Below are positions 5,086 through 10,399 of a stretch of 64,000 bases of DNA, one piece after another. Below the pieces are notes generated by a model that saw only the letters and a list, made by a program, of their open reading frames with translations, had not been told where the DNA came from and made no database searches. Location of the stretch: NCBI GenBank assembly GCA_000218745.1, contig GL947595.1, forward strand, positions 744,532 to 808,531, read 5' to 3'. Source of the DNA: Prochlorococcus marinus bv. HNLC2 (lineage in GTDB: Bacteria; Cyanobacteriota; Cyanobacteriia; PCC-6307; Cyanobiaceae). Both the position numbers and the translations under genes were made by a program. Within the stretch, counting starts at the first letter, position 1, and each line of letters starts with the position of its first letter.

Positions 5086-5748
5086 TTATTTGCAAATTTC
5101 TCCATTTTCATCAATTTCAGGATATTCATAATTATTTTCTTTGTAAGAATCTTTGATTTCAGGATATGCCCATTCAAATAATGTCTTTTGATATTTTTGT
5201 TGATCAATTCCTTCACCATTTTTAGGAAGTAAACCTACTCGATCTCTTTGACGTATGGCTTCAAAAAGTAAAATTGAGGCTGCTACAGATACATTTAAAG
5301 ATTGAACCATCCCGTACATAGGTATATAGATACATTCATCAACCTCTGCAAGTAAGTCGTCACTTAGCCCCCATTTTTCTGCTCCTAGAATAAAACAAGT
5401 ATTTTGTGTGAAATCTAATTTTCTGTAATCAATAGATTTTTTATTTAAAGTTGTTCCAAATAATTTAAATCCTTTTTTTTTAAGTTTTTTTGCAGCATCA
5501 ATTGATGAAGAGTGATTATTTAGGTTTACCCACTTTTGACTACCTTGAGCAGTACTATTAAAAGTTTTAACCTCATTCTTTTTACATATAAAATTCGCTT
5601 CAAAAACACCAGCGGCATCGCATGTTCTTAAAATTGCAGATAAATTGTGGGGTTTACTAACTCCCTCAACTAATACTGTTAGATCTTGTATCCTTCTATT
5701 TAAAACGCTTTTTATTCTTTTGAATCTTCGAGGCAATACCGACATCAA
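5086..5748 (-). CDS. trmH: tRNA (guanosine-2'-O-)-methyltransferase, SpoU family
   Basis: A 220-residue SPOUT methyltransferase that methylates the 2'-OH of G18 in tRNA. The three SpoU motifs are present: NLSAILRTCDAAG near residue 36 with the catalytic Arg, LGAEKWGLS near 121, and the knot-forming MVQSLNVSVAASILLFEAIR near 144. The short C-terminal extension after the knot fits TrmH more than TrmL. It converges on the upstream permease gene with a 3-base gap. ATG codons at 5748 and 5745 are adjacent alternatives. Confidence 0.88.
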   Translation of the reverse strand: MMSVLPRRFKRIKSVLNRRIQDLTVLVEGVSKPHNLSAILRTCDAAGVFEANFICKKNEVKTFNSTAQGSQKWVNLNNHSSSIDAAKKLKKKGFKLFGTTLNKKSIDYRKLDFTQNTCFILGAEKWGLSDDLLAEVDECIYIPMYGMVQSLNVSVAASILLFEAIRQRDRVGLLPKNGEGIDQQKYQKTLFEWAYPEIKDSYKENNYEYPEIDENGEICK

Positions 5749-5920
5749 ATAAATTAATAGTAATAGTTTATTATAAGTTTTTAGAAACTAATTTCTTAAA
5801 CAAAATATAGCTGGCTTATATTTTAATTTCAATTAATTAATTTTTTATTCTTTTTATAAGAAATTATGATTTTGAAAATAAAAAGATAAATTATAATATT
5901 AAAAGTAATAATTGAATTTT

Positions 5921-6043
5921 ATGGCATACATCGAGTGGGACTATACGGTTATAACAAGCATGGTTGAAACCCAAGGATGGACTTTGCCAGATAAAGGATC
6001 TGATGAATGGGAAAGTTTAATGATGAATTGGGAGAAACCATGA
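5921..6043 (+). CDS. small hypothetical protein (40 aa)
   Basis: An ORF of 40 residues starting MAYIEWDYTVITSMVETQGW, rich in Trp and acidic residues and with no membrane segment. Its stop TGA overlaps the ATG of the next tiny ORF (ATGA), a translational-coupling arrangement. It is preceded by a very AT-rich spacer from 5749 in which I see nothing else. The Trp content (four in 40) is hard to explain by chance in such AT-rich DNA, which supports coding. I do not recognise a family. Confidence 0.5.
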   Translation: MAYIEWDYTVITSMVETQGWTLPDKGSDEWESLMMNWEKP

Positions 6044-6123
6044 GAAAGGTTGGAATAGTTTTTGAAAAATATTGCGATTTCAAACCTGATGTTGGAGAGG
6101 GTGTTCATCTTTTAGATGAATAA
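6040..6123 (+). CDS. tiny hypothetical ORF (27 aa), coupled to the previous
   Basis: An ORF of 27 residues beginning MRKVGIVFEKYCDF, overlapping the preceding 40-residue ORF by four bases (ATGA). It may be translated by coupling, or it may be a fragment of a decayed gene. Support is only the overlap and non-repetitive composition. Confidence 0.3.
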   Translation: MRKVGIVFEKYCDFKPDVGEGVHLLDE

Positions 6124-6153
6124 AAGTTGAACCATTGACGTATCCCTTAATCA

Positions 6154-6309
6154 ATGGTTGGTATATATAAAATAAATCAAATTCATTCAGATTTGAGTGT
6201 AGAATTATTAAGGCTTTATAAAGCTTCTCATTCTCATATTCAAAAAAATAGGTTGTTCTTAATAAAACTACAAATGTTTTTATCTATATTTCCACAATTG
6301 AAAGATTAA
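6154..6309 (+). CDS. small hypothetical protein (51 aa)
   Basis: A 51-residue ORF starting MVGIYKINQIHSDLSVELLR, predicted helical and basic with no clear membrane span. It ends 24 bases before the DCC-family gene and is on the same strand, so it could be the first gene of that operon. No family is recognised; coding status rests on position and composition only. Confidence 0.35.
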   Translation: MVGIYKINQIHSDLSVELLRLYKASHSHIQKNRLFLIKLQMFLSIFPQLKD

Positions 6310-6333
6310 GTTTTTATATTTGATATAAAACAT

Positions 6334-6732
6334 ATGCAAAATAAACTAACTTTTTTATACGATGGCGGTTGTCCTCTATGCAGAAGAGAAACCGATTTTT
6401 TAAAAGGAAGAGATAAATTTGGAAATATTAAATTCGTTGATATTAATAGTGATGATTATGATCCAACAAATTACCAAAATATATCTTTCGAAAAAGCTAT
6501 GTCTAATTTACATGGTATTTTGCATAATGGAAACTTAATTCAAGGACTTGATGTCTTAGCATATGCTTATCAACTTGTTGGTCTTGGTTGGGTATATTTC
6601 CCAATCAAGATACCGATTATTTCAAATCTTTTAAAAATTTTTTATAGTTTCTGGGCAAAATATAGGTTAAAGATTACAGGTAGAAATTCATTAGAAATTT
6701 TATGTGATTCAGAATGTAAAGAGTTGATATAA
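6334..6732 (+). CDS. DCC-family thiol-disulfide protein (DUF393)
   Basis: A 132-residue protein of the DCC family (DUF393), named for the conserved Asp-x-x-C-x-x-C motif. Here it is LYDGGCPLCRRE with cysteines at 13 and 16, in the thioredoxin-like position at the end of the first strand. Members are predicted thiol-disulfide oxidoreductases. No signal peptide is seen, so it is probably cytoplasmic, although the centre (about residues 85-110) is hydrophobic. It is the first of four tightly packed genes ending in a photolyase-like gene: 2 bases separate it from the next ORF. The reaction partner is unknown. Confidence 0.85.
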   Translation: MQNKLTFLYDGGCPLCRRETDFLKGRDKFGNIKFVDINSDDYDPTNYQNISFEKAMSNLHGILHNGNLIQGLDVLAYAYQLVGLGWVYFPIKIPIISNLLKIFYSFWAKYRLKITGRNSLEILCDSECKELI

Positions 6733-6734
6733 CT

Positions 6735-6971
6735 ATGGATATTCGAGAGATTGATAGAATTATCGAAATGTGCTGGGAGGATAGAACACCTTTTGAGGCA
6801 ATAGAATTTCAATTCGGTTTAAAAGAGAAAGAAGCTATTGAATTAATGAGAAAAAATCTTAAAGAAAAATCTTTTAAGGTATGGAGAAAAAGAGTATCAG
6901 GAAGGAAAACAAAACATATGGAATTAAAATTATCGGATCGTTTTAAATCTACTCATAAAAGATCAATCTAA
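6735..6971 (+). CDS. TIGR03643 / DUF2805 family protein
   Basis: A 78-residue protein matching the small family TIGR03643 (DUF2805) as I remember it: an N-terminal half resembling a helix-turn-helix ([20 protein letters not shown], then [15 protein letters not shown]) and a basic Trp/Arg tail ([13 protein letters not shown]). The fold and charge suggest nucleic-acid binding, but no function is established to my knowledge. It lies 2 bases after the DCC gene and 1 base before the DUF2256 ORF, so it is translated as part of that operon. Confidence 0.8.
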
Positions 6972-6972
6972 T

Positions 6973-7104
6973 TTGAAAAATCTACCTCAAAAAATTTGTC
7001 CAGTTTGTCAGCGTAAATTTGATTGGAGAAAAAAATGGTCTTTATGTTGGGACGAAGTAGTTTACTGCTCTAAAAGATGTAGAAATAGGAAATCAAAAGC
7101 ATGA
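6973..7104 (+). CDS. DUF2256 Cys-rich mini-protein
   Basis: A 43-residue ORF with a TTG start, reading [20 protein letters not shown] and onward. It has the DUF2256 pattern: CPVC near the start, a Trp-rich middle, and CSKRCR near the end, four well-spaced cysteines that would form a zinc ribbon. It overlaps the photolyase-like gene by four bases (ATGA), so translation is probably coupled. It is easily missed because it is short and starts with TTG. The biochemical role is unknown; the neighbourhood suggests association with the photolyase-like protein. Confidence 0.8.
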
Positions 7105-8588
7105 AGCAAATTTCAATAATATTCCCGAATCAACTTTTTGAGGAAAGTCCGATTTTAGATTTTAAATGTGAAATCTTGATGCTGGAAGACTCATTATTTT
7201 GGGGAAACGATAAAAAATATAAGTGTATCAACCATATAAATAAAATTATTTTTTTACGTTCCGCCATGTATTCCTACAGGGAATATTTGCAGAAATCTGG
7301 TTTTAAAGTTATTTATGGATTTAATGAGAAAAATTTTGATACTTCTGATTATCTTTCAAAATATCGAGTAGAAAATTATGATAATGTAAATATTATCGAA
7401 CCACATGATTACTTACTTTCAAGAAGATTAAATAATTTTTTTAAAAAAAATAATATTAAAGTGAATATTTTAAATTCACCAATGTTCCTTATAAAAGATG
7501 CATTAAAAAATAAATTCGAAGCTAATAATAAAAAGCCTTTAATGGCAAGATTCTATGAGAATCAAAGAAAAGATTTAAAAATTTTAGTCGATTCGAATGG
7601 TTCACCAATTGGTGGGAAATGGAGTTTTGATGAATTAAATAGGAAAAAGTTACCAAAAAACCAGAAAATACCAGATTTAAAAAATATACAAAAAAATAAA
7701 AATTTGATTGAAGCGGAAAAAACAATCCGTCAAAGTGATATTGAATATTTAGGAACTAGTGAATTTTTCTTTTATCCAACAAATTTTAAAGAGGCAAAAG
7801 ATTGGTTGAGTGATTTTTTTGAAAACCGATTTTCTTTATTTGGTGATTATGAAGATGCAATAACAAAAAATGAAAGCTTCTTATGGCACAGTTTATTATC
7901 ACCTCTTCTAAACTCAGGTTTGCTTACCCCAAAAGATGTAATTGATAAGGCACTTCTTTATTCAGAGAAAAATAATATTCCACTTAATTCCCTTGAAGGA
8001 TTTATAAGACAGATTATTGGATGGCGAGAATTTATCTGTCTTACCTATAAAAAATATGGAAATAAAATGAGAACAACAAATTTTTGGAATTTTCCTAAAA
8101 AGACAATTCCTGAATCCTTTTATAATGCTTCTACTGGGATAGAACCGGTAGATAATGTAATAAGAAATATACTTAAATATGGGTATTGTCATCATATTGA
8201 AAGGTTAATGATATTAGGCAATTTTATGTTGCTTTGTAGAATCCATCCTGATGAAGTTTATAAATGGTTTATGGAAATGTTCATAGATTCATATGATTGG
8301 GTAATGGTTCCAAATGTTTATGGAATGAGTCAATTTAGTGATGGAGGGATATTTTCAACAAAGCCCTATATATCAAGTTCAAACTACATTAAGAAAATGT
8401 CAGATTATAAATCAGATCACTGGTGTGTTATCTGGGATGCACTTTTTTGGAAATTTATTCATGATTATGAAAGTTACTTTAGGAAACAATATAGATTGGC
8501 GATGTTAACTAGAAATTTGGATAAAATGGAAAGCTCAAAATTAAATAATCATTTAGCAATAGGAGCAGATTTTTTAAAAAATCTTTGA
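7101..8588 (+). CDS. cryptochrome/photolyase-related protein (FeS-BCP family) lacking Fe-S cysteines
   Basis: A 495-residue flavoprotein of the bacterial cryptochrome / prokaryotic (6-4) photolyase family. The N-terminal half is the Rossmann-like antenna domain; the C-terminal half is the helical FAD domain with [24 protein letters not shown] and the [13 protein letters not shown] stretch. Characterised members carry four cysteines for a [4Fe-4S] cluster, including a Cys-x-x-Cys just after the MSDY segment. Here the segment reads [20 protein letters not shown]: the loop is shorter and the CxxC is gone, and the Cys before HHIERLM is also replaced. It is therefore probably an Fe-S-less branch. 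Repair activity or photoreceptor role cannot be told apart from sequence. Confidence 0.85.
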
Positions 8589-8693
8589 TCAAAACATATA
8601 TTATTCATTCTCAGAAATGAAAGATTAAAAGATTATTATATTATTACGAAATGTAAAGAAAGGTGTTAATTTAATATTACACGTCTTAATTAA

Positions 8694-8873
8694 ATGAATT
8701 TAGGTTCACTTTATTTAAAAATAAATTCAACAGGTATTATTACTCTTTCAGAATTAGATTGGGTTACTAAACAACAGTTTAATTTTTCTAGAGTTGAGGA
8801 AGCTTTAGCTATAAAGCTAGGAAGATTACTTGACTCAGGTGATATTAATATCGGCTGCCGTATATATTGTTAA
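8694..8873 (+). CDS. small hypothetical protein (59 aa)
   Basis: A 59-residue ORF starting MNLGSLYLKINSTGIITLSE and ending GDINIGCRIYC. It looks like a small alpha/beta protein: an N-terminal strand pair, then an amphipathic helix (VEEALAIKLGRLLDSG). It ends with a Cys pair around Arg-Ile-Tyr. I have the impression of a conserved picocyanobacterial small protein, but cannot name a family. The 105 bases before it, after the photolyase-like gene, show nothing else. Confidence 0.55.
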   Translation: MNLGSLYLKINSTGIITLSELDWVTKQQFNFSRVEEALAIKLGRLLDSGDINIGCRIYC

Positions 8874-8885
8874 GGTCTTTCATCT

Positions 8886-9038
8886 ATGGTTAACTTCAAA
8901 AATAAAATAGCTGGTTTAAAACTTACTAAAGAAAATATTCATAATTTAAATATCTATATTTTTCTTGGTTTTAATTTAACACTTGTATCTATTTTAGGTT
9001 TTTTCTGGTTTAACTCTTCTGTTAAAGATGTTGTCTAG
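8886..9038 (+). CDS. small single-span membrane protein (50 aa)
   Basis: A 50-residue ORF starting MVNFKNKIAGLKLTKENIHN with one hydrophobic segment (about residues 23-42, IYIFLGFNLTLVSILGFFWF). The charge pattern predicts a single-span membrane protein with a basic cytoplasmic N-terminus. It follows the 59-residue ORF by 12 bases and precedes rsmB by 44. No family recognised. Confidence 0.5.
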   Translation: MVNFKNKIAGLKLTKENIHNLNIYIFLGFNLTLVSILGFFWFNSSVKDVV

Positions 9039-9082
9039 ATAAAAATTTTTTTAGTATATTTATAATAAATTTTCATAAATAT

Positions 9083-10399
9083 TTGACTGAAGGATATTTG
9101 CAAAGGAAAGCATCATGGCAGGTTCTTTTAAAGGTAAGTTCTGGTAGATATTCTGATCGTGCTATAGATGAAGTATTATCAGATTATAGATTTAATTCGT
9201 TAGATATAGCTTTTATAACTGAACTATCATTTGGTTGCATAAGGTATAGGAAATACCTTGATTTATGGATAGACCATACATCTAAATTGTCACATAAAAA
9301 GCAGCCACCGAAATTACGTTGGTTGCTTCATATAGGTTTATACCAAATATTAAAAATGAGTAAAATTCCTTATTCCGCTTCTATTTCTACTACAGTTGAG
9401 AGCGCTAAAAAGTCAGACTTAAATAAGTTATCTGGTGTTGTTAATGCAATTTTAAGAAATGCAATTAAAAAAATAGAAAATAAAAATTATCCTAATATTC
9501 CAAATAATAAAATTGATAAAATTGCTTTTTTAGATTCATTACCTGAATGGTTAGTAGAGGAAATTATTGATTGGGTAGGAATTAATAATGCGGAAATTAT
9601 TGCTAAATCTTTTAATAAAAAACCTTCAATTGACTTTAGAATAAATACCCTTAAAACAAATATGAAAGATGTAATAGAAGAATTTCGAAATTCAAATTTG
9701 GTTGCGATCGAGATCAAAGATCTTAAAACTGGTGTTGAATTAAAAAGTAAGGCAAGATCTATAAAAAAATTACCCGGTTTTATTGAAGGTAAATGGGTAA
9801 TTCAAGATAGATCTTCTCAATCGATTGCCCCATTATTAAATCCTAAAAAGGGCGATAAAATATTAGATTTATGCGCTGCTCCTGGAACTAAAACAACACA
9901 TTTAGCAGAATTAATAAAAGATGATGGGGAAATATGGGCTATTGATAGATCTAAAGTAAGATTAGATTTATTAAAAGATAATTTAAAAAGACTTGAAATT
10001 AAATGTGTTAAAACTTTTGTAGCTGATACAAATGAATTATTAAAATTAAAGCCAGATTTTTTAAATTATTTTGATAAAGTTCTTTTAGACGCCCCTTGCT
10101 CAGGTATAGGAACATTATCAAGAAATCCAGACGCAAGATGGTCTCTAAGTAATAGGAAAATTGATGAATTAATACAGCTCCAAATAAAATTACTTGAAAG
10201 TAGTAAATATTTTTTAAAAAATAATGGTACTTTAGTTTATTCGACATGCACAATATGCCCAAGGGAGAATAATTTATTAATAAATAGTTTCTTAACAAAA
10301 AATAGTGATATGCATTTAATTAGTGAAAAGCAAATACTTCCTGGTTTTAAAGATAATGGTGATGGATTTTATGCAGCTGTTATTAAGAATAAAAAATAA
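9083..10399 (+). CDS. rsmB: 16S rRNA m5C967 methyltransferase RsmB
   Basis: A 438-residue enzyme that methylates C5 of a 16S rRNA cytosine near the P site. It has an N-terminal NusB-like RNA-binding domain (residues 1-140) and a C-terminal Rossmann methyltransferase domain with the SAM motif LDLCAAPGTKTTHLAEL. The two catalytic cysteines of RNA m5C enzymes are present: PCSGIGT (Cys about 339) and the TCTICPRENN motif (Cys about 387). The start is a TTG. It converges on the penicillin-binding protein gene with a 1-base gap. Confidence 0.93.
   Translation: MTEGYLQRKASWQVLLKVSSGRYSDRAIDEVLSDYRFNSLDIAFITELSFGCIRYRKYLDLWIDHTSKLSHKKQPPKLRWLLHIGLYQILKMSKIPYSASISTTVESAKKSDLNKLSGVVNAILRNAIKKIENKNYPNIPNNKIDKIAFLDSLPEWLVEEIIDWVGINNAEIIAKSFNKKPSIDFRINTLKTNMKDVIEEFRNSNLVAIEIKDLKTGVELKSKARSIKKLPGFIEGKWVIQDRSSQSIAPLLNPKKGDKILDLCAAPGTKTTHLAELIKDDGEIWAIDRSKVRLDLLKDNLKRLEIKCVKTFVADTNELLKLKPDFLNYFDKVLLDAPCSGIGTLSRNPDARWSLSNRKIDELIQLQIKLLESSKYFLKNNGTLVYSTCTICPRENNLLINSFLTKNSDMHLISEKQILPGFKDNGDGFYAAVIKNKK

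Follow-up and report, generated by a model that had tools for sequence, protein, structure and literature searches.

A putative four-gene photorepair operon in Prochlorococcus marinus, with DUF2256 and DUF2805 proteins as candidate photolyase accessories

DNA photorepair is treated as a one-enzyme reaction. In Prochlorococcus marinus bv. HNLC2, with a genome of 1.48 Mb, a photolyase gene is the last of four tightly packed genes, preceded by genes for a DCC1-like thiol protein and for two small proteins of the families DUF2805 (TIGR03643) and DUF2256. The four genes occupy positions 6334–8588 of a 64 000-nucleotide stretch (contig GL947595.1 of assembly GCA_000218745.1, positions 744 532–808 531), which we call the window and use for all coordinates below. 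We tentatively favour, at a rough probability of 0.45, the reading that this is a light-dependent DNA-repair operon in which the DUF2256 and DUF2805 proteins are accessory to a photolyase-centred module of three phyla: Cyanobacteria of the Prochlorococcus type, Bacteroidota and Pseudomonadota.

The closest described enzymes belong to two groups. The FeS-BCP photolyases (PhrB, CryB and SePhrB) carry four cysteines that bind an Fe-S cluster, whereas PromaPL of Prochlorococcus is reported as a (6-4) photolyase without the cluster, the four cysteines being present in all sequences of that study save a 20-member subgroup M, which includes PromaPL (PMC9178010). A second study equates Phr2 with PromaPL and shows that disruption of phr2 in Synechococcus RS9916, where the gene is placed downstream of uvrC, lowers survival of ultraviolet-B (UV-B) light about 1,000-fold; Prochlorococcus clades LLII to LLV are described there as lacking any photolyase (PMC9426592). 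The same study predicts that the Fe-S-free Phr2 acts on cyclobutane pyrimidine dimers (CPD) rather than (6-4) lesions, in opposition to the first report. Cyanobacterial photolyase operons have likewise been described, namely mutT-phrB of MED4 and the UV-B-inducible operons of PCC 7335, but in these the photolyase is paired with a nudix hydrolase or with another photolyase (PMC2955971, PMC9649867). Word searches of the available text of PMC9426592 and PMC9178010 for the DUF families and for neighbouring genes turned up none of the three small proteins, and a literature search, with subscription journals mostly outside its coverage, returned no report of an association of DUF2256 or DUF2805 with photolyases.

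Anatomy of the four-gene locus

All four open reading frames (ORFs) lie on the + strand. The first (6334–6732) encodes a DCC1-like thiol-disulfide oxidoreductase-like protein of 132 amino acids (PF04134, 94.4 bits, E 1.4e-26, cut-off 27.8) with a CxxC motif, CPLC, near its N terminus, and the second (6735–6971) a basic DUF2805/TIGR03643 protein of 78 amino acids (PF10985, 108.2 bits, E 2.7e-31, cut-off 22.5; TIGR03643, 118.2 bits, cut-off 66.55). The third (6973–7104) encodes a mini-protein of 43 amino acids that belongs to DUF2256, which we take to be COG4338 (PF10013, 69.5 bits, E 2.7e-19, cut-off 25); it has a TTG start and four cysteines (CPVC...YCSKRC). The fourth (7101–8588) encodes a DPRP/Phr2 photolyase of 495 amino acids (PF04244 DPRP, 150.5 bits, E 8.3e-44, cut-off 22.1; PF03441 FAD_binding_7, 30.1 bits, cut-off 27). 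The preliminary description, made from the DNA letters alone, had proposed a CxxC thiol protein, a helix-turn-helix (HTH)-like protein, a four-cysteine protein and a photolyase-family flavoprotein, and all four ORFs match their families with scores above the curated profile cut-offs. The ORF coordinates also bear out the packing it described, with spacers of 2 and 1 bases followed by a 4-base ATGA overlap of the DUF2256 and photolyase genes.

This layout is conserved. A contig scan centred on DUF2805, covering the best 80 of 586 confirmed matches and hence biased to close relatives, identified Prochlorococcus as the closest named relatives at the locus, and all four genes were adjacent in identical order in 23 of the 80 loci. 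The DCC gene held the same position in all 23, as did the ATGA at the DUF2256/photolyase junction; the TTG that directly follows the DUF2805 stop in the window also follows it in these 23 relatives. The arrangement exceeds what chance would produce. All four genes are under purifying selection in comparisons with six Prochlorococcus-type relatives (non-synonymous rate dN 0.13–0.32, synonymous rate dS 1.16–2.54, with 2 of 24 comparisons yielding no dS), the DCC gene having a dN of 0.25–0.32. Gene order and spacing suggest that the three small proteins are made together with the photolyase; we infer co-transcription of the four genes from this spacing and its conservation, and the anatomy is, as judged by sequence, that of a photorepair operon.

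The photolyase itself falls within a known branch. Its relatives in the PDB are members of the cryptochrome/photolyase family, including PhrB (best E 9.5e-69), and it shares with the FeS-BCP enzymes a family and, in alignments, the motifs HHI.RLM and GM..F.DGG. It differs from them in the absence of all four cluster-binding cysteines, which places it outside FeS-BCP. In an alignment of 114 DPRP proteins, 64 had all four cysteines and one was a fragment, while the window protein and 48 others had none; the ligand columns of the window protein read P, gap, gap and V. It lies in a 32-tip clade of Prochlorococcus-type sequences that all lack the four cysteines. Like PromaPL/Phr2 of subgroup M, it is picocyanobacterial, with DPRP and FAD domains and no Fe-S cysteines, and we found no difference from PromaPL/Phr2 in the photolyase itself. 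By sequence, the flavoprotein is thus a member of the Fe-S-free Prochlorococcus branch that has already been described.

Several individual loci deserve mention. The DPRP frames of L051 and L087 are interrupted, as is the DCC frame of L051 (one of the 23 four-gene loci), reflecting decay or assembly errors. A contig labelled as a Rhodobacteraceae metagenome-assembled genome (L047, JABSSB010000278.1) carries a Prochlorococcus-type four-gene operon whose DUF2805 protein is 78% identical to that of the window, and is most likely a contamination. Upstream of the operon, an inverted repeat with 9-base arms (AACCATTGA / TCAATGGTT) spans positions 6130–6159, its core visible in an alignment of 23 upstream sequences; it may be part of either the upstream unit's end or the operon's 5′ region, and it gave no Rfam match and no terminator-like site. 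No Rfam match was found in 5700–9100 and no tRNA in 1–12 000.

Linkage of DUF2256 and DUF2805 to photolyases in other phyla

We counted profile matches in even samples of 148 Bacteroidota and 248 Pseudomonadota genomes, tallying DUF2805 in the former; G178, an assembly that includes a contaminant Prochlorococcus-type contig, was excluded from the Pseudomonadota table and the weak DUF2256 matches of G189 and G260 were retained. Among Bacteroidota, DPRP was present in 49 genomes and DUF2256 in 50, with both in 46 against 16.6 expected (Fisher p = 7.8e-30), and among Pseudomonadota each was present in 51, with both in 44 against 10.5 expected (7.1e-34). DUF2805, present in 43 Bacteroidota, occurred with DPRP in 37 (14.2 expected, 2.7e-18) and with DUF2256 in 38 (14.5 expected, 2.1e-19); these p-values assume independence among genomes, an assumption that does not hold. 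The preliminary description had suggested that the families neighbour one another in other marine bacteria. A genome-neighbourhood check of DUF2256 and TIGR03643 bears this out: far from rarely co-occurring, DUF2256, DUF2805 and DPRP are found together and cluster in other phyla.

No more than 3 kb separates DUF2256 from DPRP in 21 of the 46 Bacteroidota and 20 of the 44 Pseudomonadota. Among the 20 linked Pseudomonadota, DUF2256 follows DPRP on the same strand in 10, lies upstream of it in six and occupies the opposite strand in four; with three relative orientations, the link is therefore not one inherited operon. DUF2805 and DUF2256 are at most 5 kb apart in 14 of 38 Bacteroidota. Neighbourhoods of DUF2256 were inspected at all 24 distant, all 20 linked and all 8 DPRP-lacking places (seven genomes) of Pseudomonadota, and at 25 of 25 distant, 3 of 4 DPRP-lacking and none of 21 linked places of Bacteroidota. 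Where DUF2256 is far from DPRP, another photolyase stands less than 300 bases away in 5 of 24 Pseudomonadota and 11 of 25 Bacteroidota, as counted with a class I photolyase profile built from sequences of Bacteroidota islands, by which distant photolyases may be missed. Profiling of 10 of the 19 photolyases found adjoining DUF2256, drawn from all groups, yielded three that pass the DASH cryptochrome cut-off (L154, L184 and L185) and seven that pass none of the listed cut-offs. This frequent adjacency to other photolyases suggests that DUF2256 is tied to the photolyase/cryptochrome family and not to (6-4) repair alone. When 100 DUF2256 loci were clustered, the recurrent neighbours were photolyases (26), SDR proteins (21) and DPRP (16), with no further family above 7. 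SDR genes are common everywhere, which makes them less telling as neighbours.

The scan loci and whole-genome searches give a similar picture. Among the 57 scan loci beyond the four-gene set, 18 carry DPRP, 21 DUF2256, 16 both and 34 neither. The three families occur together in 14 of the 45 loci counted as non-cyanobacterial (L119, an 'uncultured bacterium', was assigned to cyanobacteria by guess), several of them as photolyase islands such as L091, which runs DUF2256, photolyase, DPRP, photolyase, DUF2805, SDR, glutathione peroxidase, TspO and photolyase. Searched whole, genomes with DUF2805 contained DPRP in 28 of 32 cases and DUF2256 in 27 of 33 (one genome having been added). Of 14 named control genomes, none had DUF2805; DPRP was present in Caulobacter vibrioides, Synechococcus elongatus and Haloferax volcanii, and DUF2256 in the first two. 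We conclude that DUF2256 is strongly tied to photolyases in other phyla, and DUF2805 less so and not everywhere.

Mobile elements carry the small genes as well. In 10 plasmid neighbourhoods, DUF2256 adjoins an annotated cryptochrome/photolyase gene in three (Acinetobacter, Novosphingobium and Rhizobium), while the other seven have no annotated photolyase gene beside the DUF2805 or DUF2256 match. On the Pseudoalteromonas THAF3 plasmid DUF2805 adjoins DUF2256, on a Thioclava plasmid (L038) a gene for an SOS response-associated peptidase directly follows DUF2256, and on a Spirosoma plasmid (L037) DUF2805 is interrupted, through decay or an assembly error. One viral contig (L270 and L367) carries DPRP, DUF2256 and DUF2805 together. 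On another (L285), DUF2256 lies on the strand opposite its larger neighbours. Named phages gave no match to the three window proteins and no DNA match for one viral DUF2256.

Predicted features of the small proteins

The four cysteines of DUF2256 are invariant in all 26 aligned sequences. An AlphaFold2 model of the window protein (predicted local distance difference test, pLDDT, 85.7) returned, in Foldseek, YacG on gyrase as its best four matches (E 0.51 to 1.2, top probability 0.82), followed by the FCS finger of LMBL2. Pairwise comparison gave weak matches with the LMBL2 finger (2w0t; VIA Z 3.8, root mean square deviation (rmsd) 3.0, 37 residues aligned) and with YacG (4tma; VIA Z 3.2, rmsd 2.5, 36 aligned). 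At E ≤ 0.001 the protein matched no other Pfam family, including DUF329, which we take to be YacG, and neither DUF2256 nor DUF2805 had a convincing sequence relative in the PDB. The YacG gyrase inhibitor and the TRASH/FCS fingers resemble DUF2256 as tiny four-cysteine proteins, but DUF2256 differs from YacG in a conserved WRKKW...W loop. Both DUF2256 and DUF329 are listed in the TRASH clan (PMC4047054). A YacG/FCS-like zinc finger with a predicted capacity to bind zinc is the likeliest identity of DUF2256; the fold matches and the clan listing agree on it, if weakly.

Two other ideas about DUF2256 were discarded. It does not stand in for a lost Fe-S cluster, as the 20 adjoining photolyases of the linked Pseudomonadota all retain the four cysteines. 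Nor was any same-frame fusion of DUF2256 with a photolyase found in the loci tested, the long open frames being stop-to-stop lengths.

The DUF2805 model (mean pLDDT 83.4) comprises four helices, at residues 3–14, 20–27, 31–41 and 44–55, with a core that resembles an HTH. It had no Foldseek match at E ≤ 0.001; its weak structural neighbours include TnpE and sigma-28, and the best pairwise comparison, with 2rn7, was weak (VIA Z 3.4, rmsd 2.8, 46 aligned). It is most likely a small nucleic-acid-binding protein, HTH-like at most, with DNA binding suggested by the model. In five loci (L064, L067, L081, L114 and L115), DUF2805 directly follows a gene for an AlkB-like 2OG-Fe(II) oxygenase that is itself preceded by an AraC-type regulator, and in three more (L079, L082 and L096) one gene separates the oxygenase gene from DUF2805.

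The window and the 23 four-gene loci are the main places where DCC adjoins the set. In another cyanobacterium (L004) it comes straight after DUF2805, and in L150 it immediately precedes a photolyase gene with DUF2256 behind it. In L218 it stands 0.8 kb ahead of a DUF2256-DPRP pair, in L211 it is on the opposite strand, 3.4 kb past DPRP, and in L246 it stands 2.5 kb ahead of a DUF2256 gene with no photolyase. Prochlorococcus-type loci L084 and L250–L253 have DUF2805-DUF2256-DPRP with no adjoining DCC and a second photolyase-like gene downstream; in L084 the trio is followed by genes for an AhpC/TSA protein, a photolyase-like FAD protein and an SDR.

Accessory proteins or neighbours

In the favoured reading, the PromaPL/Phr2-type photolyase encoded by the last gene would reverse UV lesions with the help of FAD and visible light. 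DUF2256 would serve as an adaptor that binds the photolyase, DNA or both, and improves repair in the cell through access, turnover or lesion hand-off, while DUF2805 would be a local regulator or an accessory that acts on DNA. DCC, together with the AhpC/TSA peroxiredoxin encoded in the same cluster in L084, could deal with the thiol or oxidative aspects of light stress. These roles for the small proteins are guesses, and any interaction with the photolyase is inferred. Joint absence speaks for the module as well, two of the six members of the window's family in the phylum sample being devoid of DUF2256, DUF2805 and DPRP alike.

Several findings weigh against an accessory role, beginning with cyanobacteria. 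In the window's class, DUF2256 is present in 61 of 64 genomes, 37 with DPRP and 24 without, and none of the 20 cyanobacterial DUF2256 places fetched (of 65) had a photolyase nearby. DUF2805 is found in 27 of 146 cyanobacteria, and within the class it coincides with DPRP no more than expected (16 genomes against 15.6, p = 0.52). None of the three small families appeared in the 1.5 kb flanks (which partly cover the gene) of the 30 best-scoring DPRP loci of the window's family, 29 of which encode four-cysteine enzymes and one a fragment. Among Fe-S-free DPRP loci of the family, 20 of whose 84 DPRP places were fetched, 11 of 20 had no DUF2256 in the stretch. The co-occurrence tests ignore phylogeny and class I photolyases. 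Beyond cyanobacteria, only 9 of 37 Bacteroidota have DUF2805 and DPRP 5 kb or less apart, and in the seven Pseudomonadota with DUF2256 and no DPRP, just one of eight DUF2256 places has a photolyase 3 kb or less away. Viral copies mostly stand apart from photolyases: 78 of 79 IMG/VR loci with DUF2805 (L306–L384) have neither DPRP nor DUF2256 in the stretch, and 35 of 36 viral DUF2256 loci (L270–L305) have no photolyase there. The fold matches of both proteins are weak, with best VIA Z values of 3.8 for DUF2256 and 3.4 for DUF2805, and correlations across marine metagenomes place DUF2805 in a spoke of translation-linked domains (PMC3597751). Finally, a vector-borne orthologous phr2 alone confers light-dependent UV protection on E. 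coli (PMC9426592), and partner proteins are therefore not essential for catalysis. The idea in the preliminary description that the thiol and zinc proteins could maintain, regulate or target the flavoprotein finds no support in this result, nor in the presence of DUF2256 beside photolyases with Fe-S ligands.

Part of this evidence suits a second reading, in which the genes are co-regulated in response to light stress through a shared promoter or regulon and perform separate jobs in redox chemistry, regulation or other DNA metabolism, with no direct partnership. We regard this as a serious possibility, although we lean against it. Besides the ability of phr2 to work alone, it would account for the Bacteroidota islands, which mix photolyases with genes for flavin reductase, TspO, glutathione peroxidase, SDR and ABC1 kinase, and for the AhpC/TSA and SDR genes beside the photolyases in L084. 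However, DUF2256 stays with photolyases across rearranged gene orders and across phyla and, SDR aside, no other family recurs around it in more than seven of 100 loci. A bolder version of the accessory reading, which we think unlikely as it stands, makes DUF2256 a dedicated photolyase/cryptochrome partner across bacteria, a mini zinc finger that would bind the photolyase or lesion DNA and, by analogy with the action of YacG on gyrase, might also influence the local topology of DNA or the turnover of the enzyme, with DUF2805 as its DNA-side companion.

It is also conceivable, if rather improbable, that DUF2256 and DUF2805 serve DNA handling at large and that their link to photolyases reflects a shared need. 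Viral contexts are in keeping with this. Many viral DUF2256 loci resemble early regions of temperate phages, with genes for replication protein O (17 loci), S24 repressor (17), SSB (12) or ERF (9), and viral DUF2805 loci have a flavodoxin-fold gene nearby in 37 cases and thymidylate synthase in 19, some on contigs longer than 150 kb; DUF2805 is possibly a viral auxiliary gene. The AlkB-like gene beside DUF2805 in five Flavobacteria-type loci points the same way. Such a general role alone does not explain the near-congruent distributions of DPRP and DUF2256.

We consider it doubtful that DUF2805 is instead a small HTH protein that represses or activates photolyase operons, with DUF2256 as the partner. 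Its target could be a perfect 12-base palindrome, GCTTTATAAAGC, at positions 6213–6224, about 110 bases upstream of the DCC start, which may serve as an operator or promoter element. The version with two more bases, AGGCTTTATAAAGC, occurs unchanged in 20 of the 23 four-gene loci of the scan and has one match in each of 28 out of 269 loci, all Prochlorococcus-type with the operon, though some are repeat stretches of the same genome. In the window it is the only exact match, with near-matches no more numerous than chance predicts. This operon specificity, the HTH-like model and the weak structural resemblance to TnpE and sigma-28 favour a regulator, but the structural matches reach a VIA Z of 3.4 at most, the palindrome is inexact in three of the 23 loci and its search covered the window and the loci, and DUF2805 often lies far from photolyases. 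That genome streamlining packed unrelated genes together by chance is barely credible given the recurrent linkage in Bacteroidota and Pseudomonadota, even though Prochlorococcus genomes are compact and DCC is joined to the set mainly there.

DUF2256 and DUF2805 are thus candidates for unrecognized partners of DNA photorepair. If these two uncharacterized families are partners in three phyla, their function would be directly testable by UV and light survival, and work on photolyases would need to take accessory factors into account. The favoured reading, if true, would also explain why these genes persist in genomes that rank among the most streamlined of the surface ocean.

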